A stretch of DNA of 64,000 bases, taken from the NCBI RefSeq assembly GCF_016526145.1, contig NZ_JADDUE010000002.1, positions 124,001 through 188,000 on the forward strand. The letters are read 5' to 3'. Shown here piece by piece: positions 39,032 through 57,963 of the stretch. A program made the translations under genes and the position numbers. The notes below the pieces were generated by a model. The model saw only the letters and a program-made list of their open reading frames with translations. It made no database searches and was not told where the DNA came from. Within the stretch, counting starts at the first letter, position 1, and each line of letters opens with the position of its first letter. The stretch is from Saccharopolyspora galaxeae. Lineage in GTDB: Bacteria; Actinomycetota; Actinomycetes; Mycobacteriales; Pseudonocardiaceae.

Positions 39032-39077
39032 TTGCGGTTGGCCCGCATGTTTTACTACTCGGCGGAGGCAATCGATC

Positions 39078-40451: not shown

Positions 40452-40479
40452 CTCATTAGCCGTCGGCTTTTAATTGTGG

Positions 40480-43195: not shown

Positions 43196-43209
43196 ATGAG
43201 GGGCCGTCC

Positions 43210-44532
43210 ATGCCAGAGGCTAATGAGCTGCTGCGTCGTGCTCGGGAGGGCGTCGAGTCACCGAACGCCTCCGGGGAACCATTGACGCGCCAGGAGCTTG
43301 CCGAGCTGGTCAATGCGTGGATCTACGAGAACACCGAAGCCACCAACATCGCGGAGATCGACGCCAACTACGTCGGCAAGCTTGAGCAGGGAAAAATCCG
43401 CTGGCCGCAGGACGAGCATCGACGTGCAGCGCTGCGCGGGACGCTGGGTGTGGACACCGACAGCGAGCTTGGATTCCGGCGCCCGCGGCGGGAGCACCGT
43501 CACGAGGACAACGTGGACAGGCAGCAGTTCTTACGCACGACCGGAGTCGGCGCGGCCTCGATGGGCAGCGCACGCATCATCGACATGTTCGCGTTCACCG
43601 AGCCGACTCCCGTCCCGCCTGTGGTCGGGGCGTCCGAGGTCGCCGAAGTGCGTGCCGCAGCGCAAGCTTTCGGGAGCTGGGATGCCCGCTATGGCGGCGG
43701 TTTCGTCCGTGAAGCGGTGATGGCTCAACTGCGATTCGCAGTGCAGCTCCTCAACGCGCGGTGCTCAGAGCGGACGCGGGCCGAACTGCTTTCCGCGGTC
43801 GGCTACCTCGGCCACGTCACCGGCTTCATGGCATTCGACGCCTACGCGCACGACGATGCGCGTCGGATGTTCCGGTTCGCACTGGGCTGCGCCGAAGACG
43901 CCGGTGACTGGCACTTGCGCGCCAAGATCTTGTCCTCGATGGCGCGACAGGCGATTTGGTGCGGCGATCCGGACTCGGGTCTGACCTTCTCCGAGATGGC
44001 GTTGGTTCGTTGCGACCGGCTCGCGGCCACGGAGCAGGCGATGTTGCACACGGCACGGGCGCGGGCTTTGGGCAAGCTTCAGCGATTTCAGGAGACGGCG
44101 ATGGCCGTCGGCAATGCCGATGAAGCGTTCGGACATGCTGAACCGGCGAATGATCCGCCGTGGATGGCGTACTACGACGCTGCCCAACATGCTGGCGATA
44201 CCGGTCATGCGCTGTGGGAATTGGCCATCCAGGGCCGTTTCATCACTGACGCAACGACGCGGCTGGACATGGCAGTACGAGGGCACGGGGACACCGCGGC
44301 GCGGTCGCGCGCGATCAGCCAGACCAAGCTTGCGTCCCTGGTGATGGTCACCGGCGATCCGATCGAAGCGGCGGGCTTGGGAAGCAGCGCGTTGGAAGCG
44401 GCTACGCCGATCAAGTCCCGGCGTGCCGCCGACGATCTCCGGGTGCTGAGCGGGTACGCACGTGCTCATCAGGAAGTCGACGAGGTCACCGAGCTGCGTG
44501 GTCGCATCGAATCAGCGGTGGCCACGGTATGA
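43210..44532 (+). CDS. HTH-TPR transcriptional regulator (second)
   Basis: A 440-residue protein. An N-terminal XRE-like region (LTRQELAELVNAWIYENTEATN then DANYVGKLEQGKIRWPQ, residues about 20-60) is followed by a linker ending RQQFLRTTGVGAAS, WDARYGGGFVREAVMAQL (the same motif as in 39078) and TPR-like helices to the end. It is probably a transcriptional regulator for its coupled kinase gene. ATG 43210 follows GAGGGG. The downstream ATG of 44529 overlaps its stop. Confidence 0.82.
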   Translation: MPEANELLRRAREGVESPNASGEPLTRQELAELVNAWIYENTEATNIAEIDANYVGKLEQGKIRWPQDEHRRAALRGTLGVDTDSELGFRRPRREHRHEDNVDRQQFLRTTGVGAASMGSARIIDMFAFTEPTPVPPVVGASEVAEVRAAAQAFGSWDARYGGGFVREAVMAQLRFAVQLLNARCSERTRAELLSAVGYLGHVTGFMAFDAYAHDDARRMFRFALGCAEDAGDWHLRAKILSSMARQAIWCGDPDSGLTFSEMALVRCDRLAATEQAMLHTARARALGKLQRFQETAMAVGNADEAFGHAEPANDPPWMAYYDAAQHAGDTGHALWELAIQGRFITDATTRLDMAVRGHGDTAARSRAISQTKLASLVMVTGDPIEAAGLGSSALEAATPIKSRRAADDLRVLSGYARAHQEVDEVTELRGRIESAVATV

Positions 44533-45410
44533 GCGTGGGAACTGCGGACGTGCTGCGGCAGGCGTGCGATCAGGTCGGCTTGGACCATGCGTCGGCCGAG
44601 CTGATCCGCGATGGCGAGAACGTTCTGTACCGCCTGCGTGGAGGCGTCGTCGCACGCATTGCCCGCGCCGGCCAAACGGCTGCAGCGCGGAAAGAGTTGC
44701 TGGTGACGCGCTGGCTTGCGGGTTCCGGGGTCTCGGTCGTGCGCCCGTGGAGTGACCAGGACAGGCCGGTCCTCATCGGGGAGCGGCCGGTGACGTTCTG
44801 GCACGAGCTTCCGTCGCACGCGCAGGGCACCACGACCGATGTCGCCGCGCTGCTGCGGGACTTGCACAGTCTGGCTTCGCCGGATTCGTTGAACCTGCCC
44901 GAACTCGCGCCGTTCGTGCGGTTGGCCGAGCGCATCGAGGCCGCGAGTTCGCTCGCTCCGGCTGATCGCGATTGGCTGCAGAAGCGGCTGTCCGAGCTGC
45001 AGGACGCCTATGCCGAGTTGCCCGCAGGCATTCCGTGGCGGTTGGTGCACGGGGATGCCTGGCGCGGCAACGTCGCTGCGACCTCGGCCGGTGTGGTGCT
45101 GCTCGATTTCGAGCGCTGTGCCTACGGGCCGCCGGAGTGGGACCTGGTCTCTACTGCGGTCTCGCGTGTGACCACGGGCTGGCTCGACGTCGAGACCTGG
45201 ACGCAGTACTGCCGCACCTACGGTTACGACGTCACCACCTGGGACGGCTTCGAGGTCCTGCGCGACATCCGCGAACTCCGCATGACCACCATGGCCGCCC
45301 AGGTCGCCGAGAAGAACCCTGTGGTTGGCGAACAGCTCGTTCACCGGCTGGCCTGCCTGCAGGGACGCAACGGCCCACGCCCGTGGGATGGGTGGCGTGC
45401 TGTGCCTTGA
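44529..45410 (+). CDS. Aminoglycoside-phosphotransferase-like kinase (copy 2)
   Basis: A 293-residue paralogue of 41104. The catalytic loop LVHGDAWRGNVA and the metal site VVLLDFERCAYGPPEWD are intact, and the N-terminal region SAELIRDGENVLYRLRGG aligns with copy 1. It phosphorylates an unknown small molecule. The start overlaps the regulator stop (ATGA), so the pair is translated together. It is convergent with the amine oxidase. Confidence 0.85.
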   Translation: MSVGTADVLRQACDQVGLDHASAELIRDGENVLYRLRGGVVARIARAGQTAAARKELLVTRWLAGSGVSVVRPWSDQDRPVLIGERPVTFWHELPSHAQGTTTDVAALLRDLHSLASPDSLNLPELAPFVRLAERIEAASSLAPADRDWLQKRLSELQDAYAELPAGIPWRLVHGDAWRGNVAATSAGVVLLDFERCAYGPPEWDLVSTAVSRVTTGWLDVETWTQYCRTYGYDVTTWDGFEVLRDIRELRMTTMAAQVAEKNPVVGEQLVHRLACLQGRNGPRPWDGWRAVP

Positions 45411-45441
45411 TCGCGCGGTTCGGGAGTGTGTCGAGTGAGCG

Positions 45442-46578
45442 TCAGCCGTGCTGCTGGCGGTCCGGGGCGAGGAACGCGACGTTGTGGGGCGTGGTGCCGG
45501 TGAGGGCGAGATCGGTGCTGATCTCGCCGAGGACGGGCGCGAGTTGGAAGCCGTGCCCGGAGAACGCGGCGGCGATGACCAGTGCCTCGTTAATGCCTGG
45601 TGTGCCAAGCAGTCCGTGCCCGTCGGCGGTGTATGCCTCGCTGTAGGTGGCCGTGCGGATCGGACTGGGGAAGAGCCCGGGCATGACCTGCTCGACGGCA
45701 TCATGAGCCTGCGCGACCTGGTTGGCAAGAACGTCGCGCGGCAGCGTCTCGGGAAAGTCGATCTCGGCCTTGTCCTGTTCGCGCGGCACGATCTTCGCGC
45801 CGTCTGCTCCAGGACAGCACGACATGGCCGGCTCCCCGACCCGCATGGCCACCGGGGTCCGCTCGGGCAGGAAGGTCCCGGGCGAGCGGCGGGCGAACCA
45901 AAGGACATCGACCTTGCTCACGGTCACGTCGCGGGACGGGATCACCGGAAATCCCTGGAGCCACGGGCCTGGAGCGAGGATCACGCGGTCGTAGCTCTGC
46001 CTACCGTGCTCGGTGACCACGGTCGCCAAGTCGCCGTGATTCTGGACTTCCACGACGGGCGTATAGCGGCGGATCTGCGCGCCGAGCGCCTCCGCGCGGG
46101 ATGCGGCTGCGAGCAGGCTGACCTCGGGCCGCAGCAGTCCGCCATCCGGGTCCAGCACCATGGCTTCCCCGTCGCGGAGCGGATGTTCCGGCACCCGACG
46201 CGCGGCCTCGGCTGCTTCCAACCGCTCGAGCGGCAGGTCCTGTGCCTCGGCGATGTCCTTGACTGCGCGAAGTCCGGCGTGTTCCGCCGGGCCGACGGTG
46301 ACGCAGCCGGTCTGGTGAAACAGCCGATGCCCGCTCTCGTCTTCGAGTTCCTGCCACAGCTCGCGAGCACGCCGCAGCAGCGGCACGTACTGCGGACCCC
46401 GCCGAGGCGCGGCCCGCAGAATCCGGCTCTCCCCGCCAGCCGCGCCTCGATCATGCCCAGGGGAATAGCTGTCGTAACCCACGACCGGCACGCCTCGCTT
46501 GGCGAGCTGCCACAACGCCATCGCCCCGACACTGCCCACACCAACCACGGCAACGGTCGGTTGGTTCCTGCTGCTCAT
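45442..46578 (-). CDS. FAD-dependent amine oxidase (sarcosine/N-methyltryptophan oxidase-like)
   Basis: A 378-residue DAO-family flavoprotein. The N-terminal VAVVGVGSVGAMALWQLAKRG is the FAD-binding fold (Ala/Val in place of one Gly). GHDRGAAGGESRILR is the MTOX/SoxA pattern, VILAPGPWLQ and the C-terminal GHGFQLAPVLGE are family features. It oxidises secondary amines such as sarcosine or N-methyl amino acids with O2. The usual covalent-flavin Cys is near KVDVLWF..., not clearly placed. ATG 46578 follows GAGG. Confidence 0.82.
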   Translation of the reverse strand: MSSRNQPTVAVVGVGSVGAMALWQLAKRGVPVVGYDSYSPGHDRGAAGGESRILRAAPRRGPQYVPLLRRARELWQELEDESGHRLFHQTGCVTVGPAEHAGLRAVKDIAEAQDLPLERLEAAEAARRVPEHPLRDGEAMVLDPDGGLLRPEVSLLAAASRAEALGAQIRRYTPVVEVQNHGDLATVVTEHGRQSYDRVILAPGPWLQGFPVIPSRDVTVSKVDVLWFARRSPGTFLPERTPVAMRVGEPAMSCCPGADGAKIVPREQDKAEIDFPETLPRDVLANQVAQAHDAVEQVMPGLFPSPIRTATYSEAYTADGHGLLGTPGINEALVIAAAFSGHGFQLAPVLGEISTDLALTGTTPHNVAFLAPDRQQHG

Positions 46579-46693
46579 CCGGTAGACCTCAGAGTCGGTG
46601 ACTTCGGTGCACTTACAGCCACGATAGGTAGGGGCCTGATCGTTCCTGCTCCCAGTATGGCGATCTTGCGTGCGCAACTAGCACTATGAACGC

Positions 46694-46990
46694 GTGTTCG
46701 ACTTGCAGGCTCCGCCGCCGAGTTTTCTCGACCAGGACCGTCCGGTGCGGCCGCCGCGGCCGGTGTGGATCGATCTGCCGGGGCTGTTCGGTGCCGGGGA
46801 TGTGGTGTTCGGGTCGGGGTGGGCTGTCGGCGAGCAAGCGCCGGGTGAGCTGTGCTGTTGGGGTCGGGCGTCGACGGGTGCGTGGATCGCGTTGGTGCGC
46901 TACCGGCTCGGTCGTGCTGATGGTTCGGGTGGCGGGATGATGTTGACGCACTGGTTGCCGTCCCGTCTGGTGCGGCCGCGCGATACGTGA
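46694..46990 (+). CDS. Hypothetical protein, 98 aa
   Basis: It starts at GTG 46694, divergent from the oxidase. The N-terminal part is Pro-rich (LQAPPPSFLDQDRPVRPPRP), followed by a compact beta-rich segment (DVVFGSGWAVGEQAPGELCCWG, IALVRYRLG). No recognised family. A weak ribosome-binding site makes the start uncertain. Codon bias supports a real gene. Confidence 0.5.
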   Translation: MFDLQAPPPSFLDQDRPVRPPRPVWIDLPGLFGAGDVVFGSGWAVGEQAPGELCCWGRASTGAWIALVRYRLGRADGSGGGMMLTHWLPSRLVRPRDT

Positions 46991-47203
46991 CGTGTGCTCA
47001 GAGGTCGGTGGCGCGTAGGTCCGGGCGGATGCGCAGGACGTGGGGCGGTGGCGCCAGCGTCCGAACTCGACCGCTGGCAGCCTGCAGCGGCTTCCGCGTC
47101 GCGCAGGAACGACCGTTTGTCCTGCTCACTGTTCCTGCTCTGAATGGGTGGGCTGATCGGAAAATCAGCACGCCGGCACCGGACCCAGGCCACGCTCGCC
47201 GAT

Positions 47204-47743
47204 ATGAGCTACTTACACCGAGTCTTCGGCACCCTCGTCGCCGCCGCCGCACTGTGCCTCGCCACCACCACACCCGCCATCGGTACTACGCAGGAACAGT
47301 CCTATACGTGGCACGGCATCACCTACACCAGCACTGACGGCGGACGCACCGTCACCGCGACCCCAACCCCCGGAGAACCCGATCGGCTCCCCGCAGGCAT
47401 CGACCCTGCCTCGGTGCCCGACATCAGCGAACTCGGCCCCCTGACGCCCATGCCCGATCACATCATGGGCAACGGCTGTACCAGCGCGCCCGACTCCTAC
47501 CTAGACGCCAACTTCCGCCCCTCATGCGATACCCACGATGCCTGCTACTCGAAAGACTCCACCACCGACCGGCTGGACTGTGACAACCAGTTCTGGTCGG
47601 ATCTCCTCGATGCATGCGCGGAGGCGTACCCGGTGTGGGTCGACCCCCGGAGAGTGTCCTGCGACGAGGTCACCAGCGCCTACTACGGCGCTGTCCGTGG
47701 CGCGGGCTGGAACTTCTACGAAGGACAAGGAAATCCGTTGTGA
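47204..47743 (+). CDS. Secreted prokaryotic phospholipase A2
   Basis: A 179-residue secreted protein. The signal peptide (residues 1-25: SYLHRVFGTLVAAAALCLATTTPAIG) is followed by a propeptide-like region and then the PLA2 domain. The catalytic/calcium motif is SCDTHDACYS, with the His-Asp pair, and a disulfide-forming Cys set (NGCTSAP, LDCDNQFW, LDACAEAYP, VSCDEV). It matches the bacterial phospholipase A2 family such as Streptomyces SlaA, releasing fatty acid from sn-2 of phospholipids. ATG 47204 begins the signal peptide. The stop overlaps the next ATG. Confidence 0.9.
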   Translation: MSYLHRVFGTLVAAAALCLATTTPAIGTTQEQSYTWHGITYTSTDGGRTVTATPTPGEPDRLPAGIDPASVPDISELGPLTPMPDHIMGNGCTSAPDSYLDANFRPSCDTHDACYSKDSTTDRLDCDNQFWSDLLDACAEAYPVWVDPRRVSCDEVTSAYYGAVRGAGWNFYEGQGNPL

Positions 47744-47985
47744 TGGGTCTCGCGAGTAAACCCGCTGCACGCCCGCTGATCGTCATCCTGTCTGGTGTGG
47801 CCGTGTTGGTCGCGGGACTCGTGTGGTCCGCACTGGCCCACACTCCCGGCACGGGGGTTCACTTCGGAGCCGCAGCACTGATCACGGTGGGCGAACTCGC
47901 CATCCTCATCGGGATCGTGATCGGGATCAGAGCGTTCATCACGTCACGCCGACGCCGCCGCAAGGACACTGACAACCCGTCGTGA
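47743..47985 (+). CDS. Two-helix membrane protein coupled to PLA2, 80 aa
   Basis: ATG 47743 overlaps the PLA2 stop (TGATG). Two hydrophobic segments (PLIVILSGVAVLVAGLVWSALA and FGAAALITVGELAILIGIVIGI, each trimmed here) are joined by a short loop, followed by a strongly basic tail (SRRRRRK). Its coupling to a secreted lipase suggests a partner role, perhaps protection of the producer's membrane, but no family supports this. Confidence 0.65.
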   Translation: MGLASKPAARPLIVILSGVAVLVAGLVWSALAHTPGTGVHFGAAALITVGELAILIGIVIGIRAFITSRRRRRKDTDNPS

Positions 47986-48230: not shown

Positions 48231-48440
48231 TCACCACCAGCTGCCCTTCTTCAGGTCGCTGGCGCGGACCTCTTCGGTGTAACCGTTGTCGAACTTCACG
48301 GTCGCGTACGACTCGAACAGTCCCGTGCGGGTCTCGACGACTTCGCCGCTGGTGCCCTGCTGTACGTGGCTGCCGAAGATCCCGCTACCGCCAACGTCGG
48401 TGTTCGCCACAACCTGATCGTGGTTCTCCCAGTTCCCCAT
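48231..48440 (-). CDS. Small beta-rich protein, 69 aa
   Basis: From ATG 48440: NWENHDQVVANTDVGGSGIFGS, then TSGEVVETRTGLFESYATVKF and YTEEVRASDLKKGSWW. The strand-turn pattern suggests a small SH3-like or KOW-like barrel. GTG 48476 is an alternative start. It borders the nested module. Function unknown. Confidence 0.55.
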   Translation of the reverse strand: MGNWENHDQVVANTDVGGSGIFGSHVQQGTSGEVVETRTGLFESYATVKFDNGYTEEVRASDLKKGSWW

Positions 48441-48506
48441 GCGACGCAGTCTCTCCCGACGGTCAACCCGGGCCACAGGTAGCAGGAGCGTGGTTCCGAC
48501 GGCGTC

Positions 48507-48589
48507 TGTGCCAAATCCGTGCCCAAGTTGGCCTATCGATAGTCGTTTTGGCTGGTCAGGGCGTTGTGTCCTGTGGTCTGTAAATCAGC
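48507..48589. repeat. Left 83-bp direct repeat of nested module
   Basis: It begins TGTGCCAAATCCGTGCCCA and ends with the 17-mer GTGGTCTGTAAATCAGC (48573-48589). The copy at 51667-51749 has the same 17-mer and same length; the interior is about half conserved. GTGCCA-type direct repeats next to a tRNA-like core are typical attachment-site features. Confidence 0.7.
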
Positions 48590-48625
48590 CACGCAAGCTT
48601 CAGAGGTTCGAATCCTCTACCCGGC
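48571..48625 (+). pseudogene. tRNA 3'-half fragment (Tyr-like)
   Basis: Starting at the anticodon loop CTGTAAA, the sequence continues with a variable arm, a perfect T-arm (AGAGG-TTCGAAT-CCTCT) and ACCCGGC, the 3' acceptor strand. No matching 5' half (GCCGGGT) lies upstream and the anticodon stem does not pair. It is therefore a half tRNA, as carried by elements that restore their target gene. Confidence 0.6.
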
Positions 48626-48636
48626 ACACCAGCCAC

Positions 48637-48677
48637 AACGGCCCGGTGACCTGCAATGACAGGGCAACCGGGCCGTT
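48637..48677 (+). terminator. Terminator after tRNA fragment
   Basis: AACGGCCCGGT (48637-48647) and ACCGGGCCGTT (48667-48677) form a perfect 11-bp stem, with a TTC tail of T-run. Probably captured with the tRNA 3' flank; also serves the integrase fragment's opposite strand. Confidence 0.75.
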
Positions 48678-48704
48678 TTCTGTTGTCCGGCCGTGTCCGG
48701 CTAA

Positions 48705-48989
48705 CTACGGGGTTTCACGGCCGTCTGTGCCATATACGTGCCACAGTTCGGCGTCGCCGAGGAGGTCCTGAACTCGCTGCCGAGCCGCCTGCTCGCCCCC
48801 GTCGAGGCACTTCGCGTAGACCCGGAGCAGGACGTGCACGCTGTGTCCCGCCCACTCAGCGACTCGCGTTGGTTCCACACCCGCGTTGAGCCACGTGGAC
48901 ACCGTGGCGTGGCGGAGGTCGTAGGGCCGCTTCACCAACGGCGACGCCTGGACCTCCTCCACGCCAAAAACGGACAAAAAACGACACAC
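48705..48989 (-). pseudogene. Tyrosine integrase C-terminal fragment
   Basis: It encodes about 95 residues of the catalytic C-terminus: YDLRHATVSTWLNAGVEP (HxxR box region), EWAGHSVHVLLRVYAKCLDG with the GHS and catalytic Tyr, and an end typical of phage-type integrases (ELWHVYGTDGRETP). The N-terminal and Arg-box parts are missing, and the upstream sequence has no continuation in this frame. So it is a truncated gene. Confidence 0.8.
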
Positions 48990-49029
48990 GGCGACACTAG
49001 TGGACTATAGATCACTTGAGTGAACATAG

Positions 49030-49257
49030 ATGTACAGGTGGGTTGCACGACGCTCACGCGCGGACAACAGTGAGCTTGTGGGCCTACTGATGACCCGAGA
49101 ACTTGCTGAACAGCTGAGTGTGTCAACTAGGACCGTGCAGCGTTGGGTTGACCGCGGATGGGTAGTCCCCGACGTGACCTTGCCCAGCGGCCACTTTCGA
49201 TTCGATCTTGAAAGCGTTAAGACCCAGCTCCGGGATCAGTGGCAGCACGACGAGTAG
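49030..49257 (+). CDS. Excisionase-like HTH protein, 75 aa
   Basis: The HTH region is TRELAEQLSVSTRTVQRWVDRGWVVPDVTLPSGHFRF, a MerR/excisionase-type winged helix (the GHFRF wing is typical). N-terminal residues before MTRELA are polar. Starts at ATG 49030, GTG 49078 or ATG 49090 are in frame, the last placing the HTH at the N-terminus. It could be the Xis of the fragmentary integrase or a regulator of the NACHT gene 79 bp downstream. Confidence 0.68.
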   Translation: MYRWVARRSRADNSELVGLLMTRELAEQLSVSTRTVQRWVDRGWVVPDVTLPSGHFRFDLESVKTQLRDQWQHDE

Positions 49258-49336
49258 TTGAGGGTCTGCTGTCAAGGCAAGGTGCTTGGCGAAACTCGTG
49301 CACGGCACGTAGATCTTTTGCGGCACACTGTGCGAG

Positions 49337-51439
49337 GTGACAGGGGACAACGAGATCCACAACGACCTCAGCGGCCAGGTGGGTGGGGACAGCAACCAGA
49401 TCGGTGCCAACTACGGTTCCATCTGGATGTCGTCCGGCCGCTCCGGCCAACGGGACCTCGACGAGAAGCAAGCAGATCTGCTTCGAAATCTCGCCTGGCA
49501 AGTGGGGGCGGCGAGTGATCGAGAGCTGGGCACGTGGGGTATCCGTGATCAGGACGCGTTGCCGGTGCGCTGGCACACCGCTGCGGACGACCTGGTCGAC
49601 CACCCGGAAAAGATCGACGGCAGCTCCGAGCCGCTGCCGCTCGACGGCCGGTTCACGAAGATCCTGGACACCTACGAGGCCGTCCCGTCGAAGCGGCTGG
49701 TGATCCTCGGGGAGGCCGGTGCGGGAAAGACCGTGCTCGCCCATCGCCTCATCCTCAGTTTGCTAAAGAAACGGGAAATCGAGCACGCCAGACCGGTACC
49801 CGTGCTGTTCAGTCTCGGCGGATGGAACCCCAGCGAAACCGAGTTGCCTCGCTGGCTGGCCAAGCAACTGGTCCAAGACTTTCCCTACTTGGGAGTTCGT
49901 GACTCCGTCACCAAGGCGAGACAAGCTGAAGTGTTCATCGAACGTGGACTCATCCTGCCCATCTTAGACGGATTCGACGAGATCTCCGAACGCCATCACT
50001 CAGGCGCGATCAAGAAGATCGGCACGCTCGATCGACCACTAATCGTAACCAGCCGACCAGATGAATACGCAACCGCGGCACGCGGAATCAAAGCCGTCAG
50101 CGGCGCAGCGGCCATCGCCCTCGAACCCCTCAGTCTCGACGAAGCCCGCGACTATCTCTGCCGCACCACCAGCAAAGACCGCGCCCCCGCCTGGGGAGAG
50201 GTATTCGAGCACCTTTCGGTCGCACCCACCGAACCTGTCAACCAAGACTTGCGGACCGTGCTGAGCACGCCCTTGATGATCGTGCTCGCCCGCACCGTCT
50301 ACAACGACACCGCAGGCCCCAAGCCACTCGATCTGCTCGACAGACGGCGCTTCCCCACTAAAACAGCTGTAGAAGAACACCTCCTAGATCAATACATCAC
50401 TACCGTCTACGCACACCCGAACACCGGTCCAGGCAGACCATCCCGCCCGAACTGGGACCCCGGCCGTGCCCGTCACTGGCTCGGTTACCTCGCCACCCAC
50501 CTCCAACAACGCAACACCCACGACCTCACCTGGTGGCACCTCCCCGCCACCCTCCACCGCCACACGCGAATCCTCATCACCACAGCACTCGTCGTGCTCG
50601 CGGTCGGGCTCTTTGCGGCGCTCATGTACGTGCTTACGGGCGGAATCCAGATCGCGCTTGCCGTCGGGATCGGGCTTGGGGTCCCACGCGAACCCACGGC
50701 TGGTCTCACAGTGGGGCTCACGTCCGCGGTTAATGTGGGGCTCACAGCGGGGCTCACAGCGGGGCTCACGGCCGGGTTAGTCAACGAAGTGCGATTTTCC
50801 GGCGGTCACACCTGGAATCCAGAGCGCCTGCGTCTAAGCCTGCGCCGACGAGGTGGCCAAACACGCGCCAGGTGGGTTACCTACTTCAAGACGTCCACCT
50901 TCGAATTCACGGTTGGGTTCGTAACCGGACTGGTGGTCGGGCTCACGGTCGCGATTTTGGACGTGCTTGCGAATGGGTTTGGGTCCGGGCTTGCAGTCGG
51001 GCTGTTTTTCGGGCTCGTATTCGGGCTCACGTACGGATGTGCACTCGGGGGTCCAAGCATTTTCTTGGCGGCTGTCGGGGATGCCTCCGATTCCCAAGCG
51101 ACTGGCCCATGGACACTCTTGACCCGTGACCGAACCGTCACGCTTATCAGGACCGCCACGACGATCGTGGTCGCAGCCATGATACCAGTACCATTCGGAT
51201 TCGGATTCGACCCAACACTCGGGATCAACATGGCGCCAATGCGCTTCGTACTCTCTGCGTGGGGAAGCTGGATCCTACTCGCGAGGCTGTGGCTACCGCT
51301 GACCGGACGGTTGCCATGGCGCCCGAAACGATTCCTCGAAGACGCCAACGACTACGGCGTACTGCGAACGACAGGAGCCGTCTACCAATTCCGCCACGCG
51401 CGGCTCCGTGACCACCTCGCCAAGCACTACCAGACGTAA
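49337..51439 (+). CDS. NACHT-domain STAND ATPase with RHIM-like N-terminus and membrane C-terminus
   Basis: A 700-residue protein. Residues 8-29 (HNDLSGQVGGDSNQIGANYG and following) form a short RHIM-like amyloid-type motif. The NACHT ATPase has Walker A LVILGEAGAGKT (121-132), the acidic Walker B LPILDGFDEISE, sensor-like RPLIVTSRPDEY and a winged-helix region. From about residue 410 come several hydrophobic helices rich in GL repeats (LTAGLTAGLTAGL, GLAVGLFFGLVFGLTYG). Bacterial NACHT proteins include antiphage defence proteins that sense infection and trigger cell death. Here the membrane part may be the effector. The start is GTG 49337. Confidence 0.85.
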   Translation: MTGDNEIHNDLSGQVGGDSNQIGANYGSIWMSSGRSGQRDLDEKQADLLRNLAWQVGAASDRELGTWGIRDQDALPVRWHTAADDLVDHPEKIDGSSEPLPLDGRFTKILDTYEAVPSKRLVILGEAGAGKTVLAHRLILSLLKKREIEHARPVPVLFSLGGWNPSETELPRWLAKQLVQDFPYLGVRDSVTKARQAEVFIERGLILPILDGFDEISERHHSGAIKKIGTLDRPLIVTSRPDEYATAARGIKAVSGAAAIALEPLSLDEARDYLCRTTSKDRAPAWGEVFEHLSVAPTEPVNQDLRTVLSTPLMIVLARTVYNDTAGPKPLDLLDRRRFPTKTAVEEHLLDQYITTVYAHPNTGPGRPSRPNWDPGRARHWLGYLATHLQQRNTHDLTWWHLPATLHRHTRILITTALVVLAVGLFAALMYVLTGGIQIALAVGIGLGVPREPTAGLTVGLTSAVNVGLTAGLTAGLTAGLVNEVRFSGGHTWNPERLRLSLRRRGGQTRARWVTYFKTSTFEFTVGFVTGLVVGLTVAILDVLANGFGSGLAVGLFFGLVFGLTYGCALGGPSIFLAAVGDASDSQATGPWTLLTRDRTVTLIRTATTIVVAAMIPVPFGFGFDPTLGINMAPMRFVLSAWGSWILLARLWLPLTGRLPWRPKRFLEDANDYGVLRTTGAVYQFRHARLRDHLAKHYQT

Positions 51440-51880
51440 CGAGTCTCGGAACTTACGCTACTCATGCGCTAGTCGGCCACAGCCGGATATCCACGCCTCG
51501 ATTGCGTTTCCGAATGCATTCGCAAGAGTTCGCTCGCGTTTGCCTTGGCGCCGACAGAGAGTTCCAGAATTAGAACCGACTGCGACGGACGGGAGCGAGC
51601 ATGCCTGCTCAGAGCTTGAAGGCGAGAGTGCCCTAGCCAGCCGCTCCATCCCGCCGGCGCGTGCAGTGTGCCAAATCTGTGCCCAAATCTATCAGGAAGC
51701 AGTCGTTATTCCTGGTCAACGCCCCGCGTCGCGTGGTCTGTAAATCAGCAGTCGCGCGAACCGGTTCTCAGCTGCTTCCCGCCTCGGCGTCCATAGAGGA
51801 AATTTGTCCTTATAAGAGCACCTGGTCAAGCAGCAGATCGTAACGATAATGTGGATTATGGGCATTCGTCGCACCTGAGA
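51440..51880. other. 441-bp gap with right repeat of nested module
   Basis: It contains the second 83-bp repeat (51667-51749). No convincing gene is seen; the sequence is AT-richer than the neighbours and short frames lack codon bias. No hairpin terminator after the NACHT gene was found by eye. Confidence 0.5.
51667..51749. repeat. Right 83-bp direct repeat of nested module
   Basis: Matches 48507-48589 in length, at the beginning (TGTGCCAAATC and GTGCCCA), at AGTCGTT and CTGGTCA in the middle, and at the 17-mer core 51733-51749. It lacks the tRNA 3' half that follows the left copy. Confidence 0.65.
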
Positions 51881-52801
51881 TTACGGCGGTGGCAACCCCC
51901 AAACACCCGTTAGGTTGGCGCCGTTGAGGTTGGCACCGCCGAGGTTGGCGTAGGGGAGTTTGGCGCCGTGAAGGTTGGCGTTGGTGAGGTCGGCGCCGTT
52001 GAGGTCGGCGGCGGCGAGGCTGGCGTTGGTGAGGCTGGCGTTGGTGAGGTTGGCGCCGGTGAGGTCGGCGCCGTTGAGGTTGGCGCCGGTGAGGCTGGCG
52101 GCGCCGAGATCGGCGTTGGTGAGGCTGGCGCCGTAGAGGCCGGCAACGGTGAGGCCGGCGCCGGTGAGGTTGGCGCCGTCGAGGTTGGCGTTGGTGAGGT
52201 CGGCGCCGTTGAGGTTGGCGTTGGTGAGGTCGGCGCCGTTGAGGTTGGCGAAGCCGAGGTTGGCGAAGCTGAGATCGATGGCTGGATCAGTGGGTAACGG
52301 ACGACGCTTGCCGAGGGTGGTCAGTGCGGCCTGCACATCGGCCGGGACGGTGCCGGAATCCCGCGCCCCCGGCCCGCCCCGCTTCGTGGTTTCGCGCACG
52401 AAGGTAGCCAGCAGGTTGACTACGGTGGGCTGATCGGCTTCGGAGTCGCGGGCGATGCGTTCTAGGCTGTAGATGCCGCCTAGGCGGACCTCAAGGATGT
52501 CGTGGTTGGCCAGCTGCTCAGTGGCTTTGCTCAACCGCTCGGTGATCTGCTGTTGCTCCAGGTTGTGGCTCTGGGCGTTGGCGCTGATGAGCTGCGGTAT
52601 GGCCAACGCGAGCGTGCCCAGCGCGGCGCATAGCGTAAGGAGCTGAGTCATATCGAGGCGGCGCCGCAGCCGGGGTTGAGTCCCCGCCGGAGGGGAGCGG
52701 GTCTTCCGGCGAGTGCCAGCCGGGCGGCGTATGCCCAGCCCGACTGGCCGGGCGGGCTGTCGGGCACGCTTACGGCCACCGAGACGACGAGAGCCGATCA
52801 T
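51881..52801 (-). CDS. Pentapeptide-repeat membrane protein
   Basis: About 306 residues. A basic N-terminus leads to one hydrophobic segment ([22 protein letters not shown]), a helical region with [31 protein letters not shown], common in actinobacterial pentapeptide proteins, and a C-terminal array of about 25 A(D/N)LxX repeats (residues about 190-300: [20 protein letters not shown] and so on), folding as a right-handed quadrilateral helix. The DNA is correspondingly repetitive (51905-52270). Function unknown. The start is uncertain between 52855, 52801 and 52651. Confidence 0.78.
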
Positions 52802-52913
52802 GGTTTGAATGTGCCACAGTCGCCTCGTTCCTGTGGCTGTTTCAACGTCGTCCATGCGAAACCGGCTTGTGCAAGAGCGCGCTGGTCGGTGCGGGCCACA
52901 GCCGCGGCGTCGC

Positions 52914-52933
52914 TGGTCTCAGTTTTGGTCTCA
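52914..52933. repeat. Right arm repeat, TGGTCTCA pair
   Basis: Exactly the 20 bases at 28041-28060. It lies 94 bp inside the right att site. Together the two copies look like arm-type sites for the element integrase. Confidence 0.65.
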
Positions 52934-53027
52934 TTCGTCAGCGTTCAAGGCGGTTCAGCAGCATGTGCGCAATCCCGTGACCAGCTTGTATGAACGCGTT
53001 GAACGCCACCGAACGGGGTTTCGCAGA

Positions 53028-53077
53028 CCTGAAAAGCGGAAGGTCGGCGGTTCGACCCCGCCCCTGGCCACCGCTCA
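53028..53077 (+). repeat. attR: 50-bp direct repeat (partial tRNA-Phe)
   Basis: Identical to 27949-27998. Only the anticodon-loop-to-3'-end part of tRNA-Phe is present, so it marks the far end of the element. Confidence 0.92.
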
Positions 53078-53085
53078 GACCAGCC

Positions 53086-53118
53086 AAAAAGCCCCACCGG
53101 TTGCCGGTGGGGCTTTTT
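53086..53118. terminator. Terminator downstream of attR
   Basis: AAAAAGCCCCACCGG (53086-53100) and CCGGTGGGGCTTTTT (53104-53118) form a perfect 15-bp stem with TTG loop. Position and sequence parallel the terminator after the intact integrase (28009-28040), fitting the left end of a second related element. Confidence 0.88.
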
Positions 53119-53285
53119 CAGGTCTCCGTTGAGGTCTCAGTCGCTTCCCCAAGGAAGGCGTTCAGCCTGCCCGCCGCGTCTAGCCGGATCTCGTCGGTGA
53201 CGTAGCGCTTCTTCATCGACAACGTCGACCAACCCATCATGTCCATGACGGTCCGGTCGGGGACGCCGAGGACCAGCGGCTGACG
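53118..53285 (-). pseudogene. 3' remnant of a second tRNA-Phe integrase
   Basis: It encodes about 55 residues: LVLGVPDRTVMDMMGWSTLS followed by MKKRYVTDEIRLDAAGRLNAF. The intact integrase reads LILGVPDRTVMELMGWSTPT and then MKKRYMHVTDEI, so the stub lacks two residues after the catalytic Tyr. The rest of the gene is missing. This is the decayed end of an older element that used the same attachment site. Confidence 0.85.
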
Positions 53286-53439
53286 CGCCCTGAGCTGAGC
53301 ACCGATTCCGGTGGGCTCGCTTGTTTCGAATTCCGCCAATGTGCGGGGCTGCTTGGAAGCGGGCGCCTGTGCTCGGCGCGGCTGATCATGCGGTGTGCGT
53401 GGTGGGGGAAGACGTGCTGAGCGCTGATCGGCCGCCGGT

Positions 53440-53673
53440 TCACTGCACGCGGGTCTCACGGACGGACGGGGAGATCGTGTACTTGTACACCCAGACGCCG
53501 TGCGGACGCTGGTGATCCTTCACGTACCACGCGGGGGTTTCATCGGCGGGTTCCGAACCGTCTCGCGGCACGGGCAGCGGCGATAGCGGAGCGCCGTCGG
53601 CCCCGGCAGGCAGCGTGATCTCCCGGCCGTCCTCGGGGCCACCGAACAGCTCGATCCGAGTGTGCAGGTCCAC
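53440..53673 (-). CDS. Hypothetical protein, 77 aa
   Basis: GTG 53673 follows GGGAGGG. The product starts DLHTRIELFGGPEDGREITLPAG and ends PAWYVKDHQRPHGVWVYKYTIS, a pattern found in small actinobacterial and phage-associated proteins of unknown function; the strand pairs suggest a small beta domain. It may belong to the remnant element or to the chromosome. Confidence 0.6.
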   Translation of the reverse strand: MDLHTRIELFGGPEDGREITLPAGADGAPLSPLPVPRDGSEPADETPAWYVKDHQRPHGVWVYKYTISPSVRETRVQ

Positions 53674-53813
53674 GGGTGATCCCTCCCAGGGCTGGAGTCT
53701 TGCGTGCGGCCACCGGATGAGACCGCGGGCGGCGGTGACAGGTTCCCTTGTCCACACAAACGAGTGAGCATCCGCAAAGTTGCGCGAGAAAGTGAATTAC
53801 CCCTGAAAGTAGG

Positions 53814-53890
53814 ACGCCCCCGCGCTCAACCGGCCTGGGGGTCACCGGGAGTGCGGGGGCGTTAAGTCCACCCCTGGGGGTCAGGTGGAC
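53814..53890. terminator. Two hairpins between 77-aa gene and PP2C-like gene
   Basis: ACGCCCCCGC (53814-53823) pairs with 53853-53862 (10 bp, 29-nt loop). GTCCACC (53866-53872) pairs with GGTGGAC (53884-53890). They lie downstream of the PP2C-like gene on its strand. The 294-bp stretch 53674-53967 shows no other feature. Confidence 0.55.
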
Positions 53891-53967
53891 GCCTTCCAGG
53901 TTACTTGGTGGTATGCCGAATGTCTCTAGGTGCAGAGATCTTTTTTCCAGGAGCCCGGTGTGCAACA

Positions 53968-54795
53968 TCACACGATCGGACTAGCGAACCGAACCAGTGC
54001 GAGCGCCTGATCGTCGTGCCGTTTCGGTCGCGGCCAGCGGGTTCCGTCCGGGTCTGCCTCCTCGGCTGCGCGCACTCGGTCCAGCACGGCTCGGGGCCCG
54101 GCGCGGGACGCCTCCTCGAGCATCGCCGACCAGTCCTCGTAGCTGCCGTACTCCTGCACCCCGCAGGACACACCGTCGGTGGCCGCCAAGGCCGCTCGCA
54201 CCGCAGGCCGCGGCCAGTCGGCGCGGGCGGCGTGGAACGCTGCTTCGGGGACTGCCTCGGCGACCCAGAAACCTCCGTCGACATTGCGCCAGCGGGACGT
54301 ACGATCCATCGACGAACCCAGCGCGCGGCGGTGCCCTGCGCCGAATCCGCCGCCGGAAAGCAGGCGTTCGCGGTAACCGCCGCCGCTGCCCAGCGCCGCG
54401 AGCTGGTCGTCGATCACCGGCTGCGGGCCGTCCCCGGTGAACACCACGATCGGGCTGTCCGCGAGAACCAGGGCCTCGACGTGGTCGTCGTCCCAGCGCA
54501 ACAGCGATGCAGTGCTCGAAGGGGAGGCGCCGGGCCGGAGTTCCCAGGTGTCCGCCACATCGCTGATCGCCTCGGCGAGCACATCCGCCAGGTCCGCGCC
54601 CGGAACGGCCAAGCGCGGCCGCAACGCCTCGGCGAGCTGCGCGGCGTACCAGCCTCCGGAGCGTGCCGCCGGACTCAACGACGTCGCGCCATCGAGCACC
54701 GCCACCGCGTTGGGCAGCACCAGCACCACGTCCTCGCTCCGGTCGGGTCCGGAGAAGTGATCACCGGCCTGTTCCGCGACTTCAACGCTAGGCAT
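53968..54795 (-). CDS. PP2C-like phosphatase family protein
   Basis: A 275-residue protein. NAVAVLDGATSL is the PP2C metal-binding start (VxDG), HVEALVLADSPIVVFTGDG gives the second strand, and KRHDDQALALVRF the C-terminal DD(N/Q) metal motif. An upstream AALAATDGVSCGV matches the central DG motif. It should dephosphorylate Ser/Thr residues; substrate unknown. It is downstream of and overlaps the YczE-like gene by 8 bp on the same strand, so co-expressed. Confidence 0.78.
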   Translation of the reverse strand: MPSVEVAEQAGDHFSGPDRSEDVVLVLPNAVAVLDGATSLSPAARSGGWYAAQLAEALRPRLAVPGADLADVLAEAISDVADTWELRPGASPSSTASLLRWDDDHVEALVLADSPIVVFTGDGPQPVIDDQLAALGSGGGYRERLLSGGGFGAGHRRALGSSMDRTSRWRNVDGGFWVAEAVPEAAFHAARADWPRPAVRAALAATDGVSCGVQEYGSYEDWSAMLEEASRAGPRAVLDRVRAAEEADPDGTRWPRPKRHDDQALALVRFASPIV

Positions 54796-55438
54796 GGTCC
54801 GATTGTCCGCTGCGGCGCACCGCGACCAACGGCAGCAGCGACTGCGTGAGAACCCCGATCAGCAGGGCGTACACGACGGTCCCGACGCCGACGGAACCGC
54901 CCAGCAGCCACCCGGCGGCGAGCACGACGAGTTCGACAACGGTCCGCGCCACCCGCACCGACCAGCCGGTGCGCGCGTGCAAGCCGGTCATCAGGCCGTC
55001 CCGCGGCCCGGGGCCGAGCCGGGCGCCGACGTACACCGCAGTGGCCGCGCCGTTCAGCAGCACTCCCCCCACCAGCAACGCGAGCTGCCAGACCAGCGCG
55101 TGCGCCTGCGGCAGCACGGCCAGCGCCACATCCACCGACCCGGCTACGACCACGACGTTGGCGACGGTGCCGATGCCCGGTCGCTGCCGCAGCGGCACCC
55201 ACAGCAGCAGCACGATGATGCTGGTCAACGCCGTGACAGCACCGAAGCTCCAGCCCAGCCGGTTGGTCAGCCCGTCGTGCAGCACGTCCCACGGCGACAA
55301 TCCGAGCCCGGCGCGGACCATCAACGCCATGCTCGTGCCGTAGAGCCAAAGCCCGATCAGCAGCTGCGGCAGCCGGGCGGCCGGGCGCACTCGCACCGGT
55401 ATCGGCGAAAGATCCACCTGAGCCGTTGTCGAAGTCAT
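54788..55438 (-). CDS. YczE/YyaS/YitT family membrane protein
   Basis: A 216-residue protein with about five hydrophobic helices. Motif AGLGLSPWDVLHDGLTNRLGWSFG is the YczE hallmark, and ARLGPGPRDGLMTGLHARTGW is its internal repeat. YczE-like proteins are membrane proteins of uncertain transport function. It is divergent from a MocR-type regulator, the arrangement known for yczR-yczE. ATG 55438 fits; the frame extends 17 codons upstream. Confidence 0.85.
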   Translation of the reverse strand: MTSTTAQVDLSPIPVRVRPAARLPQLLIGLWLYGTSMALMVRAGLGLSPWDVLHDGLTNRLGWSFGAVTALTSIIVLLLWVPLRQRPGIGTVANVVVVAGSVDVALAVLPQAHALVWQLALLVGGVLLNGAATAVYVGARLGPGPRDGLMTGLHARTGWSVRVARTVVELVVLAAGWLLGGSVGVGTVVYALLIGVLTQSLLPLVAVRRSGQSDHA

Positions 55439-55447
55439 GTTTCGAGA

Positions 55448-55499
55448 GGTACCCGGGTATTGGTACCGAGTACGAGGTCCAATCTGCAATTATTGGACC
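55448..55499. promoter_or_regulatory. Regulatory region between YczE-like and MocR genes
   Basis: GGTCCAAT (55476-55483) and ATTGGACC (55492-55499) are perfect arms with 8-bp spacing, ending one base before the regulator's ATG. Two GGTACC palindromes lie at 55448-55453 and 55462-55467. It is the probable MocR binding site controlling both genes. Confidence 0.6.
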
Positions 55500-55500
55500 C

Positions 55501-56937
55501 ATGTCCCGCGTGATCGGTCGAGTCGGCGCCCGCGGTATCGCGGACCTGCTCCAGGACTGGCACTCCGGCCGCCCCAGCTCCCGCGGCCTGCACCGCGCCG
55601 TGCGGCGGCTCGTCCTCGACGGCCGGTTGCCGCCCGGTACCCGGCTGCCTGCCGAGCGCGAGTTCGCCGAAGCGCTCGGGGTGAGCCGCACCCTCGTGGT
55701 GCGCGCGCTGGAACTGCTGCGCGAAGAGGGTTTCGCAGCCAGCAGGCAGGGATCCGGTTCTTGGGTCCGGCTCCCCGGCGACCGCGCGAACCCCGATCCG
55801 GGCGGCTGGCCCCCGGCGACCGGCGAGTTCATCAACCTCGCGCAAGCGACGCTGCCCGCGCCACCGGAGCTGACCACTGCACTGGATCGCGCCCGGTGCC
55901 TGCTGCCCGAGCACCTCAGCGGGCACGGCTACCAGGCGTTCGGCCTCCCCGAGCTGCGCGAACTGATCGCCGCGAGCTACGCGCGCCGCGGTCTGCCCAC
56001 GAACCCGCAGCAGATCCTGGTGACCAACGGCGCCCAGCACGGCTTCGCGCTCGTGCTGCGCGCACTGGTGTCTCCGGGTGAACGGGTGCTGGTGGAGCAC
56101 CCCACCTACCCGAACCCGCTGCAGGCCATTCGGGGCGTCGGTGCCGAGGCGGTGGCCGTGCCGATGCTCGCGCAGGGGTGGGACCTCGAGTTGATGTCGG
56201 CGACGCTGCACCAGGCCAACCCGAAGCTCGCGTACCTGATCCCGGACTTCCAGAACCCGACCGGCATCCGGATGGGCGCCGACGGGCGGGAACGGCTCGC
56301 CGGGATGCTGCGCCGGACCAGAACTCCCGCGGTGATCGACGAGACGTTGGTCGATCTGGACCTGACCGACGGCGAAGCGCCCGCGCCGGTGGCCGCGTTC
56401 GACGAGGGCCGGGTGATCACGCTCGGGTCGGCGGGCAAGTCGTTCTGGGGCGGTCTGCGGCTGGGCTGGGTCCGGGCGCCGGAGGACCTGGTGCAGCGCC
56501 TGCTGCTGGACCGGGCTGCGGTGGATCTCGGCAGTCCAGTCCTGGAGCAACTGCTGCTGACCGAACTGCTCCGCGATCCGGATCCGGTGTTGCGCCGCAG
56601 ACGCGAAGAGGTGGCGCGGCTGCGGGATGTCTTGATCGCCGAGCTGGCGGAGCACCTTCCCGGCTGGCGGTTCCGCGTTCCGGACGGCGGGCTGTCGTTG
56701 TGGTGCGACTTGGGTTCCCCGGTGAGCAGCCGGTTGGTCGTGGCCGCCGAACAGCACGGGCTGCGGCTGGTTCCGGGCAGCCGGTTCGCGGTGCAGGGCT
56801 CGCTGGAGCGCTATCTGCGGTTCCCGTACACCCTGCCCGTGGATGAACTCCGGCAGTCGGTGCGGCGGATCGCGGCGGTGGCCGCGCCGCTCGGCGGCAC
56901 CACCAGTCCGTGTCCGCTGGACGTTCCGGTGAATTGA
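55501..56937 (+). CDS. MocR/GntR-type PLP-dependent regulator (YczR-like)
   Basis: A 478-residue protein. An N-terminal GntR winged HTH (RLVLDGRLPPGTRLPAEREFAEALGVSRTLVVRALELL, residues about 35-75) is fused to an aminotransferase fold-I domain with NGAQHGFALVLRAL, IPDFQNPTGIRM and GSAGKSFWGGLRLGW, whose Lys binds PLP. MocR proteins are PLP-sensing transcription factors. It is divergent from the YczE-like gene and starts one base after a dyad, so it may be leaderless. Two terminators follow. Confidence 0.88.
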   Translation: MSRVIGRVGARGIADLLQDWHSGRPSSRGLHRAVRRLVLDGRLPPGTRLPAEREFAEALGVSRTLVVRALELLREEGFAASRQGSGSWVRLPGDRANPDPGGWPPATGEFINLAQATLPAPPELTTALDRARCLLPEHLSGHGYQAFGLPELRELIAASYARRGLPTNPQQILVTNGAQHGFALVLRALVSPGERVLVEHPTYPNPLQAIRGVGAEAVAVPMLAQGWDLELMSATLHQANPKLAYLIPDFQNPTGIRMGADGRERLAGMLRRTRTPAVIDETLVDLDLTDGEAPAPVAAFDEGRVITLGSAGKSFWGGLRLGWVRAPEDLVQRLLLDRAAVDLGSPVLEQLLLTELLRDPDPVLRRRREEVARLRDVLIAELAEHLPGWRFRVPDGGLSLWCDLGSPVSSRLVVAAEQHGLRLVPGSRFAVQGSLERYLRFPYTLPVDELRQSVRRIAAVAAPLGGTTSPCPLDVPVN

Positions 56938-56953
56938 CGCCCGGCGGTTCGCC

Positions 56954-57030
56954 CTCCGGCACGGCCCCTCGTCGTGCCGGAGAGCGACCGCGGGCACCCC
57001 GGTGCCGCAGGGGCAGTGCGGCACCGGGGT
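56954..57030 (+). terminator. Two strong hairpins after MocR gene
   Basis: CTCCGGCACG (56954-56963) pairs with CGTGCCGGAG (56973-56982). ACCCCGGTGCCGCA (56996-57009) pairs with TGCGGCACCGGGGT (57017-57030), 14 bp with a 7-nt loop. Both are perfect, and convergent genes follow on the other side. Confidence 0.8.
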
Positions 57031-57171
57031 CGGGGCTTCCGGGCGAGTGACAGGTCAGGTCAACATTCGCTCGTCCGGAAAGCGCCCCCGATCCCGTCCG
57101 GCCGGGCGCAGGCGGCGGGACGGGAGACTGCGGTTGCGATGTGCGCGCCGGAGGCCCGGCCGGACCCCGGT

Positions 57172-57963
57172 TCAGTCGGGTGCGGCGGACGGTTCGCCCA
57201 GAGCGATGCCGCGCAAGGCGGGCGGCTCGGCGTGGCCGCCTGCGGCGCGAGCAGGCCCGGATAGCCGGACTTGCGCGGGCAGGACGGCATGCGGCCCGCG
57301 CAACTCATGTCCCGGCGCGGACGAGGTAGGTGCGGTGATCGTGCTGGGTGCGGGTGGCGGTGGAACCGGCGACGGTTCAGGTGGTGCCTTTTGGTGCACT
57401 TCCGGCGCTTGCACGGCGTCGGGCGGGCTCCACGCGCTGTCGGCGTGGCCGATGTGTTGCTCTGCGGGGCGTGCAGCGTCGGCCCGCGGTGGAGCCGGGA
57501 CGGGGATTTCGGCGTTCGGGATCGGCTTTTGCGGTGTCAGAGATGTGGTCGCCGGTGGTGCGGAGCTCTCCGGCGAAACGGCCTCGTCGGCCTGCTCGAC
57601 GCCGCGCGCGGGTGCCGTGACTTCCTCGCCGAGCGAGGCGTCGATCGGTTCTTGCACGGCCGTGGTCAGCTGGACGTCGGGTTCTTCGACTCGGACTTGT
57701 TCGACTTCCGGGGAGCGCGGTTCGGCGATCTCGATCTCGTCGGGCTGCGCGGCTTCGGTTCGCGCGGCGATGTCCGGCATGGCTTCCTGCACCTGCGCGG
57801 ACACGTCCGGCAACCGTTCCGGCTCGGCCGCCGCGACGCCGGTGCCGAGCAGCCAGGCACCGGCCGCGATGCCCGCGGCGGCGACGGCCCGCGTGGTGCA
57901 GGCGCGCAGGCGGGACCAGTGCCTGCGCCGCGCGCAGCTACCGGTCACCTGCACCACCGCCAA
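57172..57963 (-). CDS. Secreted Pro/Ala/Glu-rich protein
   Basis: A 263-residue protein starting at TTG 57963 (GTG 57957 also possible). A basic region (RRRHWSRLRACTTR) precedes a hydrophobic signal AVAAAGIAAGAWLLGTGVAAA with an Ala cleavage site at about residue 46. The rest is acidic, low-complexity, Pro/Glu/Ala/Val sequence with no folded domain evident. Probably a cell-wall-associated or secreted spacer protein. It is divergent from the subtilisin-like gene. Confidence 0.65.
   Translation of the reverse strand: MAVVQVTGSCARRRHWSRLRACTTRAVAAAGIAAGAWLLGTGVAAAEPERLPDVSAQVQEAMPDIAARTEAAQPDEIEIAEPRSPEVEQVRVEEPDVQLTTAVQEPIDASLGEEVTAPARGVEQADEAVSPESSAPPATTSLTPQKPIPNAEIPVPAPPRADAARPAEQHIGHADSAWSPPDAVQAPEVHQKAPPEPSPVPPPPAPSTITAPTSSAPGHELRGPHAVLPAQVRLSGPARAAGGHAEPPALRGIALGEPSAAPD

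Follow-up and report, generated by a model that had tools for sequence, protein, structure and literature searches.

The stretch of Saccharopolyspora galaxeae DNA analysed here (the window; 64 kb of contig NZ_JADDUE010000002.1, positions 124,001 to 188,000) carries a gene for a NACHT ATPase between two 83-bp direct repeats. We consider it probable that the segment 48590-51749 is a remnant, similar to a cis-mobilizable element (CIME), of a second tRNA-Tyr actinomycete integrative and conjugative element (AICE), and that it lies in tandem inside an AICE which is now of the tRNA-Phe type. Its presence in a 25.1-kb insertion that is absent from another genome of the same species implies only that the remnant was transported in the past. 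In the following, G000 is the host genome of the window, G001 belongs to the same species and G002 to a second species; the genus set comprises six genomes (G000-G005).

Ends and contents of the nested unit

The unit and its flanking repeats consist of the following features:

48507-48589 (+): left repeat, tRNA-Tyr-type right-end arm sites (GTGCCAAATCCGTGCCC) and core
48578-48626 (+): tRNA-Tyr 3' half, left attachment end of the proposed nested remnant; matches the intact tRNA-Tyr at G000:C21:287413
48637-48680 (+): terminator hairpin and T run behind the tRNA half (fold z -3.8)
48727-48744 (+): left-end arm site GTGCCATATACGTGCCAC
about 48753-48968 (-): C-terminal remnant of a tRNA-Tyr integrase, 72-73 of 453 codons
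49030-49257 (+): HTH_17/MerR-like protein, 75 aa
49308-51439 (+): promoter region and NACHT gene (coding 49337-51439, 700 aa, Pfam NACHT E 2e-11)
51667-51749 (+): right repeat, tRNA-Tyr-type right-end arm sites and core (63/83 to the right end at G002:110677)

Repeats: The two copies are identical at 59 of 83 positions. The arm block, which opens with TGTGCCAAATC(C/T)GTGCCC, contributes 20/22, the middle 22/44 and the core GTGGTCTGTAAATCAGC 17/17. Within the 64-kb window, this 17-bp core occurs at these two places only, and the similarity ends at the core, not beyond it. As a chance control, 200 first-order Markov sequences of the interval were scored, and the highest value was 40/83. The exact right-end pattern is found in 2 of 297 family genomes (twice in G000, once in G002) and spans 79 bp each time. 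The two repeats look like the right ends, i.e., arm sites and core, of two different tRNA-Tyr-specific elements, and their assignment as attachment-type sites of one integrase family is supported.

Left end: The stretch 48578-48694 is 92% identical to G000:C21:287413-287531, where ARAGORN calls an intact tRNA-Tyr gene, 115 kb off on the same contig. Sequence similar to the terminator hairpin also follows intact tRNA-Tyr genes. Up to 48959, the left end (from 48578) is 87.5% identical to that of the intact tRNA-Tyr AICE of G002. There the DNA similarity stops within the integrase gene, and the putative deletion junction lies at about 48960. The arm variant GTGCCATATACGTGCCAC also occurs in a NACHT cassette of G002 (see below); the intact AICE of G002 has another variant.

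Right end: The unit has core, tRNA half and arm on its left side and arms and core on its right side. The right copy includes 12 nt of tRNA sequence and no tRNA 3' half, and unrelated sequence follows.

Integrase remnant: The tail is 92% identical to residues 380/381-452 of the 453-residue G002 integrase. With the latter as query, no full tRNA-Tyr integrase was found in G000, only the tail. Full relatives are present at the tRNA-Tyr locus of G001, G002, G003, and G005, and a 46% relative lies elsewhere in G004.

Helix-turn-helix (HTH) gene: About 70 bp separate the integrase tail from this gene, which is divergent from it. The encoded protein had been proposed to be HTH/Xis-like. It is an HTH protein, and its likeness to Xis exists at the profile level only (phrog_66, E 1.4e-5). 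In the tRNA-Tyr AICEs of G002 and G005, the right part holds an HTH gene that matches it at 37%. PADLOC mad1 matches the protein as well (E 2.9e-6); among 31 aligned NACHT proteins, 4 have a weak mad8 match, the best at E 3.1e-4. These matches probably reflect generic HTH and ATPase similarity, though both names belong to one defence system.

NACHT promoter: The 32 bp before the NACHT start (49308-49339) hold the palindrome GCACACTGTGC. They are identical (32/32) in a paralog on contig C11 of G000 and similar in others. This stretch is a possible operator or leader.

CIMEs are defined in PMC5704250. As in a CIME, functional integration and transfer genes are absent from 48590-51749; no rep or tra gene is present in the list of open reading frames (ORFs) or among the Pfam matches of the three main ORFs. 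Regarding a derivation from an integrative and conjugative element (ICE) by deletion, the left end matches the intact AICE up to 48959, and the HTH segment matches no DNA in the genus other than the NACHT promoter.

Much of the original prediction for this locus is confirmed: it had named two 83-bp direct repeats with a shared 17-mer core, a left copy continuing into a tRNA 3' half and a terminator, and, enclosed by the repeats, genes for an HTH and a NACHT protein and part of an integrase gene, which agrees with the alignments, the hairpin, the ORFs and the Pfam matches given above. It was also right about the compactness of the NACHT-bearing unit and its nesting within an AICE; the repeats are attachment-type sites, and a NACHT gene of G002 lies between similar tRNA-Tyr halves. 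That the unit is an integrative module of its own, as had been suggested, is not supported: its integrase is a tail of 72-73 codons, the search with the G002 integrase gave no full tRNA-Tyr integrase in G000, and no tRNA half is present at the right end.

The enclosing AICE at tRNA-Phe

The enclosing element and its surroundings comprise:

27918-27993 (+): intact tRNA-Phe(GAA), into which the enclosing AICE is integrated (ARAGORN; 3' part again at 53028)
27949-53072: enclosing AICE in tRNA-Phe, 25.1 kb core to core
28058-29374 (-): tyrosine integrase of the tRNA-Phe type (PF00589 E 3e-19; open over its whole length)
29687-35764 (-): replication/transfer genes, DUF3631 (RepAM type), Prim-Pol, GGDEF, and FtsK/SpoIIIE-like (Pfam)
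48231-48476 (-): small gene beside the tRNA-Tyr-type right end (92.7% nt to G001 2157762-2157993)
51881-52855 (-): pentapeptide-repeat protein between the proposed remnant and the AICE right end
52901-53072 (+): tRNA-Phe-type right end and tRNA-Phe 3' half (attR), 78% to the tRNA-Phe right end of G005
53118-53459 (-): C-terminal remnant, outside the AICE, of an older tRNA-Phe integrase (97% to the G001 remnant)

In G001 (L116), the counterparts of window 24303-28205 (98%) and 53028-57380 (99%) overlap and continue on, i.e., the site is empty. As the G001 site is continuous without the AICE, the 25.1 kb have been inserted when compared with G001. The integrase remnant at 53118-53459 is also present at the G001 site and is a trace of an earlier tRNA-Phe element.

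The AICE integrase shares 84% identity with the one next to tRNA-Phe in G005. PMC3218068 lists the replication proteins of AICEs as RepSA, RepAM/DUF3631 or Prim-Pol. The enclosing element has both DUF3631 (E 6e-69) and Prim-Pol (E 4e-43). For the FtsK/SpoIIIE-type transfer protein, the PF01580 match is weak (22.5 bits, under the cut-off of 24). Of the features of an AICE, the element has the integrase, a replication protein and attachment (att) repeats at a tRNA gene whose site is empty in a relative. The nesting in a larger AICE stands as predicted; this AICE sits in tRNA-Phe and not in tRNA-Tyr.

The backbone of the element is found at other tRNA genes. The tRNA-Tyr AICE of G001 shares pieces of the stretch 29715-47030 at 89-94% identity, and just left of its right end stands the G001 counterpart of the small gene at 48231-48476. 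In G000 itself, the same backbone (85-90% in pieces over 29253-38125) is present with another integrase at tRNA-Ser on contig C11, where the intact tRNA-Ser lies at 322256 and its 3' half is repeated at 342050. Hence, the AICEs of this genus have a common backbone, with integrase ends that are exchanged among them.

Two further observations concern the AICE. A gene for a prokaryotic phospholipase A2, followed by a small gene, occupies 47144-47985. The DNA of 47724-47978 is 90.6% identical to a gene just right of the tRNA-Tyr attachment site in G000 and G001, and the segment is perhaps another captured piece. Self-complementary stretches at 29722-29857 (136 bp, 74%) and 33041-33082 (42 bp, 86%) are possibly transfer or replication sites.

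Cassettes at the tRNA-Tyr locus of the genus

Each of the six genus genomes has at least one extra tRNA-Tyr half. Ten intervals between successive tRNA-Tyr sites measure about 1-4 kb and four measure 15-30 kb; this count leaves aside four short rows (27-44 bp), the right copy of the window and the 115-kb distance from the window to the tRNA-Tyr locus, part of its end points are estimated, and the last G003 site matches in the terminator part alone. The contents that were read include an amino-acid permease, VanZ, and a GNAT enzyme beside a GGDEF-EAL protein; other intervals look decayed. DUF6461 was found by scanning in an interval of G005, and a G003 protein is alike by eye. Between the intact tRNA-Tyr and a second 3' half at G000:C21:287413-288512 (L002 1501-2600) lie 957 bp, which hold a small partner next to a BrnT-like gene whose Pfam score is below the cut-off. 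G001 has this arrangement too, and the two intervals probably represent one event in the count.

The closest parallel to the window is in G002, where 12 kb of an array were read (L101). Its NACHT gene is 46-49% identical and lies in a 3158-bp interval (112061-115219) between tRNA-Tyr halves. The DNA similarity of this cassette ends at window 48748, just before the usual C-terminus of the integrase. The 26 matched integrase residues lie mostly beyond this end, so about a dozen codons are present at most. Another NACHT gene of G002 (L109) is flanked by a 67-bp direct repeat (87%) at 7457-7523 and 11943-12009, 4.5 kb apart.

In a tRNA-Tyr cassette of G005, a tRNA-Phe right end, decayed and identical to that of the window at 99/143 positions, precedes a decayed tRNA-Tyr right end by about 200 bp, which is the mirror image of the window arrangement. 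The tRNA-Tyr half of G000 at 288370 has a left flank as at G001 2124644 and a right flank as at G001 2158075. It therefore resembles the site as it would have been prior to the arrival of the G001 AICE and of the 3.9-kb cassette there.

NACHT relatives in other settings

The paralog of C11 (L107 6257-9915) is 70% identical in protein and 75% in DNA, aligned over 49308-51431 from the promoter to the gene end. Its neighbours are tRNA-Ser(TGA) on one side and, on the other, the integrase of a 19.8-kb AICE; the repeats seen in the window and the HTH gene are absent. In the comparison of NACHT genes with and without the repeats that had been suggested, the G002 gene lies between tRNA-Tyr halves and the C11 paralog has no such repeats.

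In the genus, 10 of 28 NACHT rows span at least 600 of the 700 residues. Two of the ten are between tRNA-Tyr halves (the window and G002:112544), one is beside a tRNA-Ser attachment site, and for the other seven no intact tRNA was found in the 17 kb read (three) or in 1.5-kb flanks (four), a search for intact genes and not for halves of other tRNAs. A third NACHT relative of the host genome, distant and partial (36%), at G000:C2:216962 has a tRNA-Leu about 1.2 kb away (L041 172-258).

Elsewhere, we compared the best 80 of 521 confirmed homologous loci, taken from named genomes. A tRNA lies within 3 kb in 2 of these 80, and four integrase queries (E 1e-5) gave no AICE-integrase match in any of them up to 8 kb on each side. 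A general tie of NACHT genes to att sites is therefore rejected.

Origin of the unit and alternative explanations

The anatomy, the homologies, the empty tRNA-Phe site in the same species and the similar arrangement in G002 are observed directly. To explain them, we propose that an internal deletion removed most of the integrase and the replication and transfer genes of a tRNA-Tyr AICE. This would have left the left end (tRNA-Tyr 3' half, terminator, arm site and integrase tail), the HTH gene, the NACHT gene and the right end (arms and core). By accretion at one site, the remnant would have become the tandem neighbour of another AICE, joined through the core to the tRNA-Tyr-type right end of the latter. 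This carrier may then have swapped its left, integrase-bearing end for one of the tRNA-Phe type and may have inserted into tRNA-Phe with the remnant included. As the carrier would have brought the remnant along, the NACHT gene would have been carried passively by the tRNA-Phe integrase. Separate excision of the remnant would need a tRNA-Tyr integrase from another element. We infer this order of events and, likewise, the mobility of the remnant. In favour of the proposal are the repeat anatomy with its chance control, the rarity of the right-end pattern, the left end shared with the G002 AICE as far as the integrase gene, the backbone pieces and small gene in common with the G001 AICE, the empty site in G001, the NACHT cassette of G002, the ten short tRNA-Tyr intervals, the backbone at tRNA-Ser and the paired right ends in G005.

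Several findings weigh against a deleted tRNA-Tyr AICE. The right copy, with its 12 tRNA nucleotides followed by unrelated sequence, must be truncated or recombined. The segment 48955-49308, HTH gene included, has no DNA match in the genus except the NACHT promoter. The cassette of G002 has a dozen integrase codons or so at most and a decayed right tRNA half. At the right end of the G001 tRNA-Tyr AICE, the arm sites are unlike those of the left copy, and only the neighbouring gene is common. The C11 paralog shares only promoter and gene; hence, the NACHT gene has also moved without the cassette. Finally, a look for empty sites in related AICEs had been suggested, and none was found for 48590-51749: the junction 48589/51750 is absent from the tRNA-Tyr sites that were read, the 30 bp from 51750 occur, among 277 loci, only in five that cover the same place, and 51690-53030 has a full match only in G000 among 60 genomes, a set without G001.

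An alternative does without a second element. In this case, the AICE's own old tRNA-Tyr attachment region and integrase tail would have stayed behind when its integration module turned over by the addition of a tRNA-Phe module, and the HTH and NACHT cargo would have landed between the old and the new module. The order of tRNA-Tyr right end, tRNA half, arm and integrase tail is, in circular form, that of attP and int of one AICE. Moreover, tRNA-Phe and tRNA-Tyr right ends are close together in the G005 cassette, and PMC9513070 documents integrase switching in AICEs. However, the second copy of arm and core at 51667-51749 is unexplained unless a second tRNA-Tyr module is assumed, and in the 12 kb read of the G002 array, tRNA-Tyr halves flank a NACHT gene while a tRNA-Phe integrase was not found. 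We regard this explanation as unlikely.

It is quite unlikely that attachment ends of AICEs in this genus act as a hot-swap slot where immune-type genes are loaded next to att, with the NACHT unit as a still live hitchhiker. If so, any incoming tRNA-Tyr AICE could excise the unit from the tRNA-Phe element and relocate it, and one gene would move between elements of different tRNA specificity.

That the compact NACHT cassette is its own unit of mobility, excised and inserted at the 17-bp core, appears very unlikely. Arm sites are present at both ends, and a NACHT cassette of nearly equal length exists in G002. Nevertheless, we reject it as the main explanation because the integrase is a remnant and the search of the genome gave no full tRNA-Tyr integrase; in addition, no empty junction was found and the nearest paralog is in a different setting. 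Chance or generic similarity, e.g., of two unrelated tRNA fragments, would suit the 44-bp middle with its 50% identity but is already contradicted by the Markov control (59/83 against at most 40/83) and by the same end type in the AICE array of G002, and it deserves almost no weight.

Relation to described elements

CIMEs: PMC5704250 describes CIMEs, in tandems with ICEs or integrative and mobilizable elements (IMEs), that have lost integration and transfer genes, have kept the attachment ends and stand in tandem with a related element which can carry them. The unit of the window is alike in its lost genes and its place in tandem, and it may have been carried in this manner; of the ends, it has core, tRNA half and arm on the left and arms and core on the right. 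It differs in belonging to an actinomycete tRNA-Tyr family and in the right end, which is truncated after the core. Furthermore, the AICE around it is specific for a different tRNA, and the integrase of this carrier therefore does not fit the ends of the unit any more, unlike in a CIME.

Decayed AICEs: Remnants of a partial integrase, cargo and two direct repeats are described in PMC9513070. They share these three components and the suggested later mobilization in cis with the window. However, they occupy a chromosomal site that is empty in other strains, whereas the remnant proposed here is nested in a second AICE and has NACHT cargo.

Accretion and switching: For Streptomyces, PMC9513070 also reports accretion of AICEs and integrase switching between sites. 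Tandem AICEs in Frankia are reported in PMC3218068, where a figure legend names a NACHT NTPase among the AICE genes. These cases and ours have in common that several elements share one tRNA gene and that relatives of an element occur at other sites with other integrases; with Frankia, the NACHT NTPase is common as well. In contrast to them, accretion and integrase switching are stacked in one element here.

In literature searches, we found no account of an AICE remnant that carries a NACHT gene and lies within an AICE of different specificity. This is the only new part; accretion, remnants, switching and NACHT cargo are published. The layout had been thought undescribed, which applies to the exact combination only, as partial-integrase remnants, CIMEs and the Frankia NACHT NTPase appear in the papers cited above. 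With one 25-kb element and an unoccupied site in the same species, the locus illustrates how accretion, internal decay and exchange of integrase ends can combine to move cargo between tRNA loci. It also calls for caution, as the direct repeats that flank a defence-like gene may stem from the ends of accreted elements and need not mark a self-mobile cassette.

The NACHT protein

The structure model (mean predicted local distance difference test, pLDDT, 82; predicted template modelling score, pTM, 0.77) has a disordered region at residues 1-35, followed by an alpha/beta ATPase region with Walker A at 125-132, long helices at 408-656 and a small alpha/beta C-terminal end. Hydropathy places four hydrophobic segments in these helices, at 412-430, 526-544, 552-570, and 600-618. 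The disordered N-terminus holds NDLSGQVGGDSNQIG, and homologues have LQIG, AQIG, FQVG, VQVG or IQIG at this place. We take this stretch to resemble the tetrad of the RIP homotypic interaction motif (RHIM), from which the window copy deviates in its first residue.

A RHIM-like motif, BASS3, is described for systems of the NOD-like receptor (NLR) type in PMC8086366. The N-terminal stretch with its QIG core resembles it, and the first residue of the window tetrad differs, being N and not I or V. With bNACHT, the bacterial NLR-related proteins of PMC12169576, our protein shares the NACHT ATPase. In 89 sources, a loose pattern of the N-terminal motif was found in 17 ORFs, of which 12 encode NACHT proteins. 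As only these 12 have it, most homologues are without a RHIM-like motif. In the same search, no effector with this motif adjoined a NACHT gene.

The protein is most likely a STAND-type (signal transduction ATPases with numerous domains) sensor ATPase, in which the RHIM-like N-terminus would nucleate assembly and the hydrophobic helices would act at the membrane. From its class, a role in defence is plausible. No PADLOC model (0 families) and, by sequence search, no solved structure was found for it. Phage records contained no NACHT relative, and 61 plasmid records had a NACHT match, all below 60% identity.

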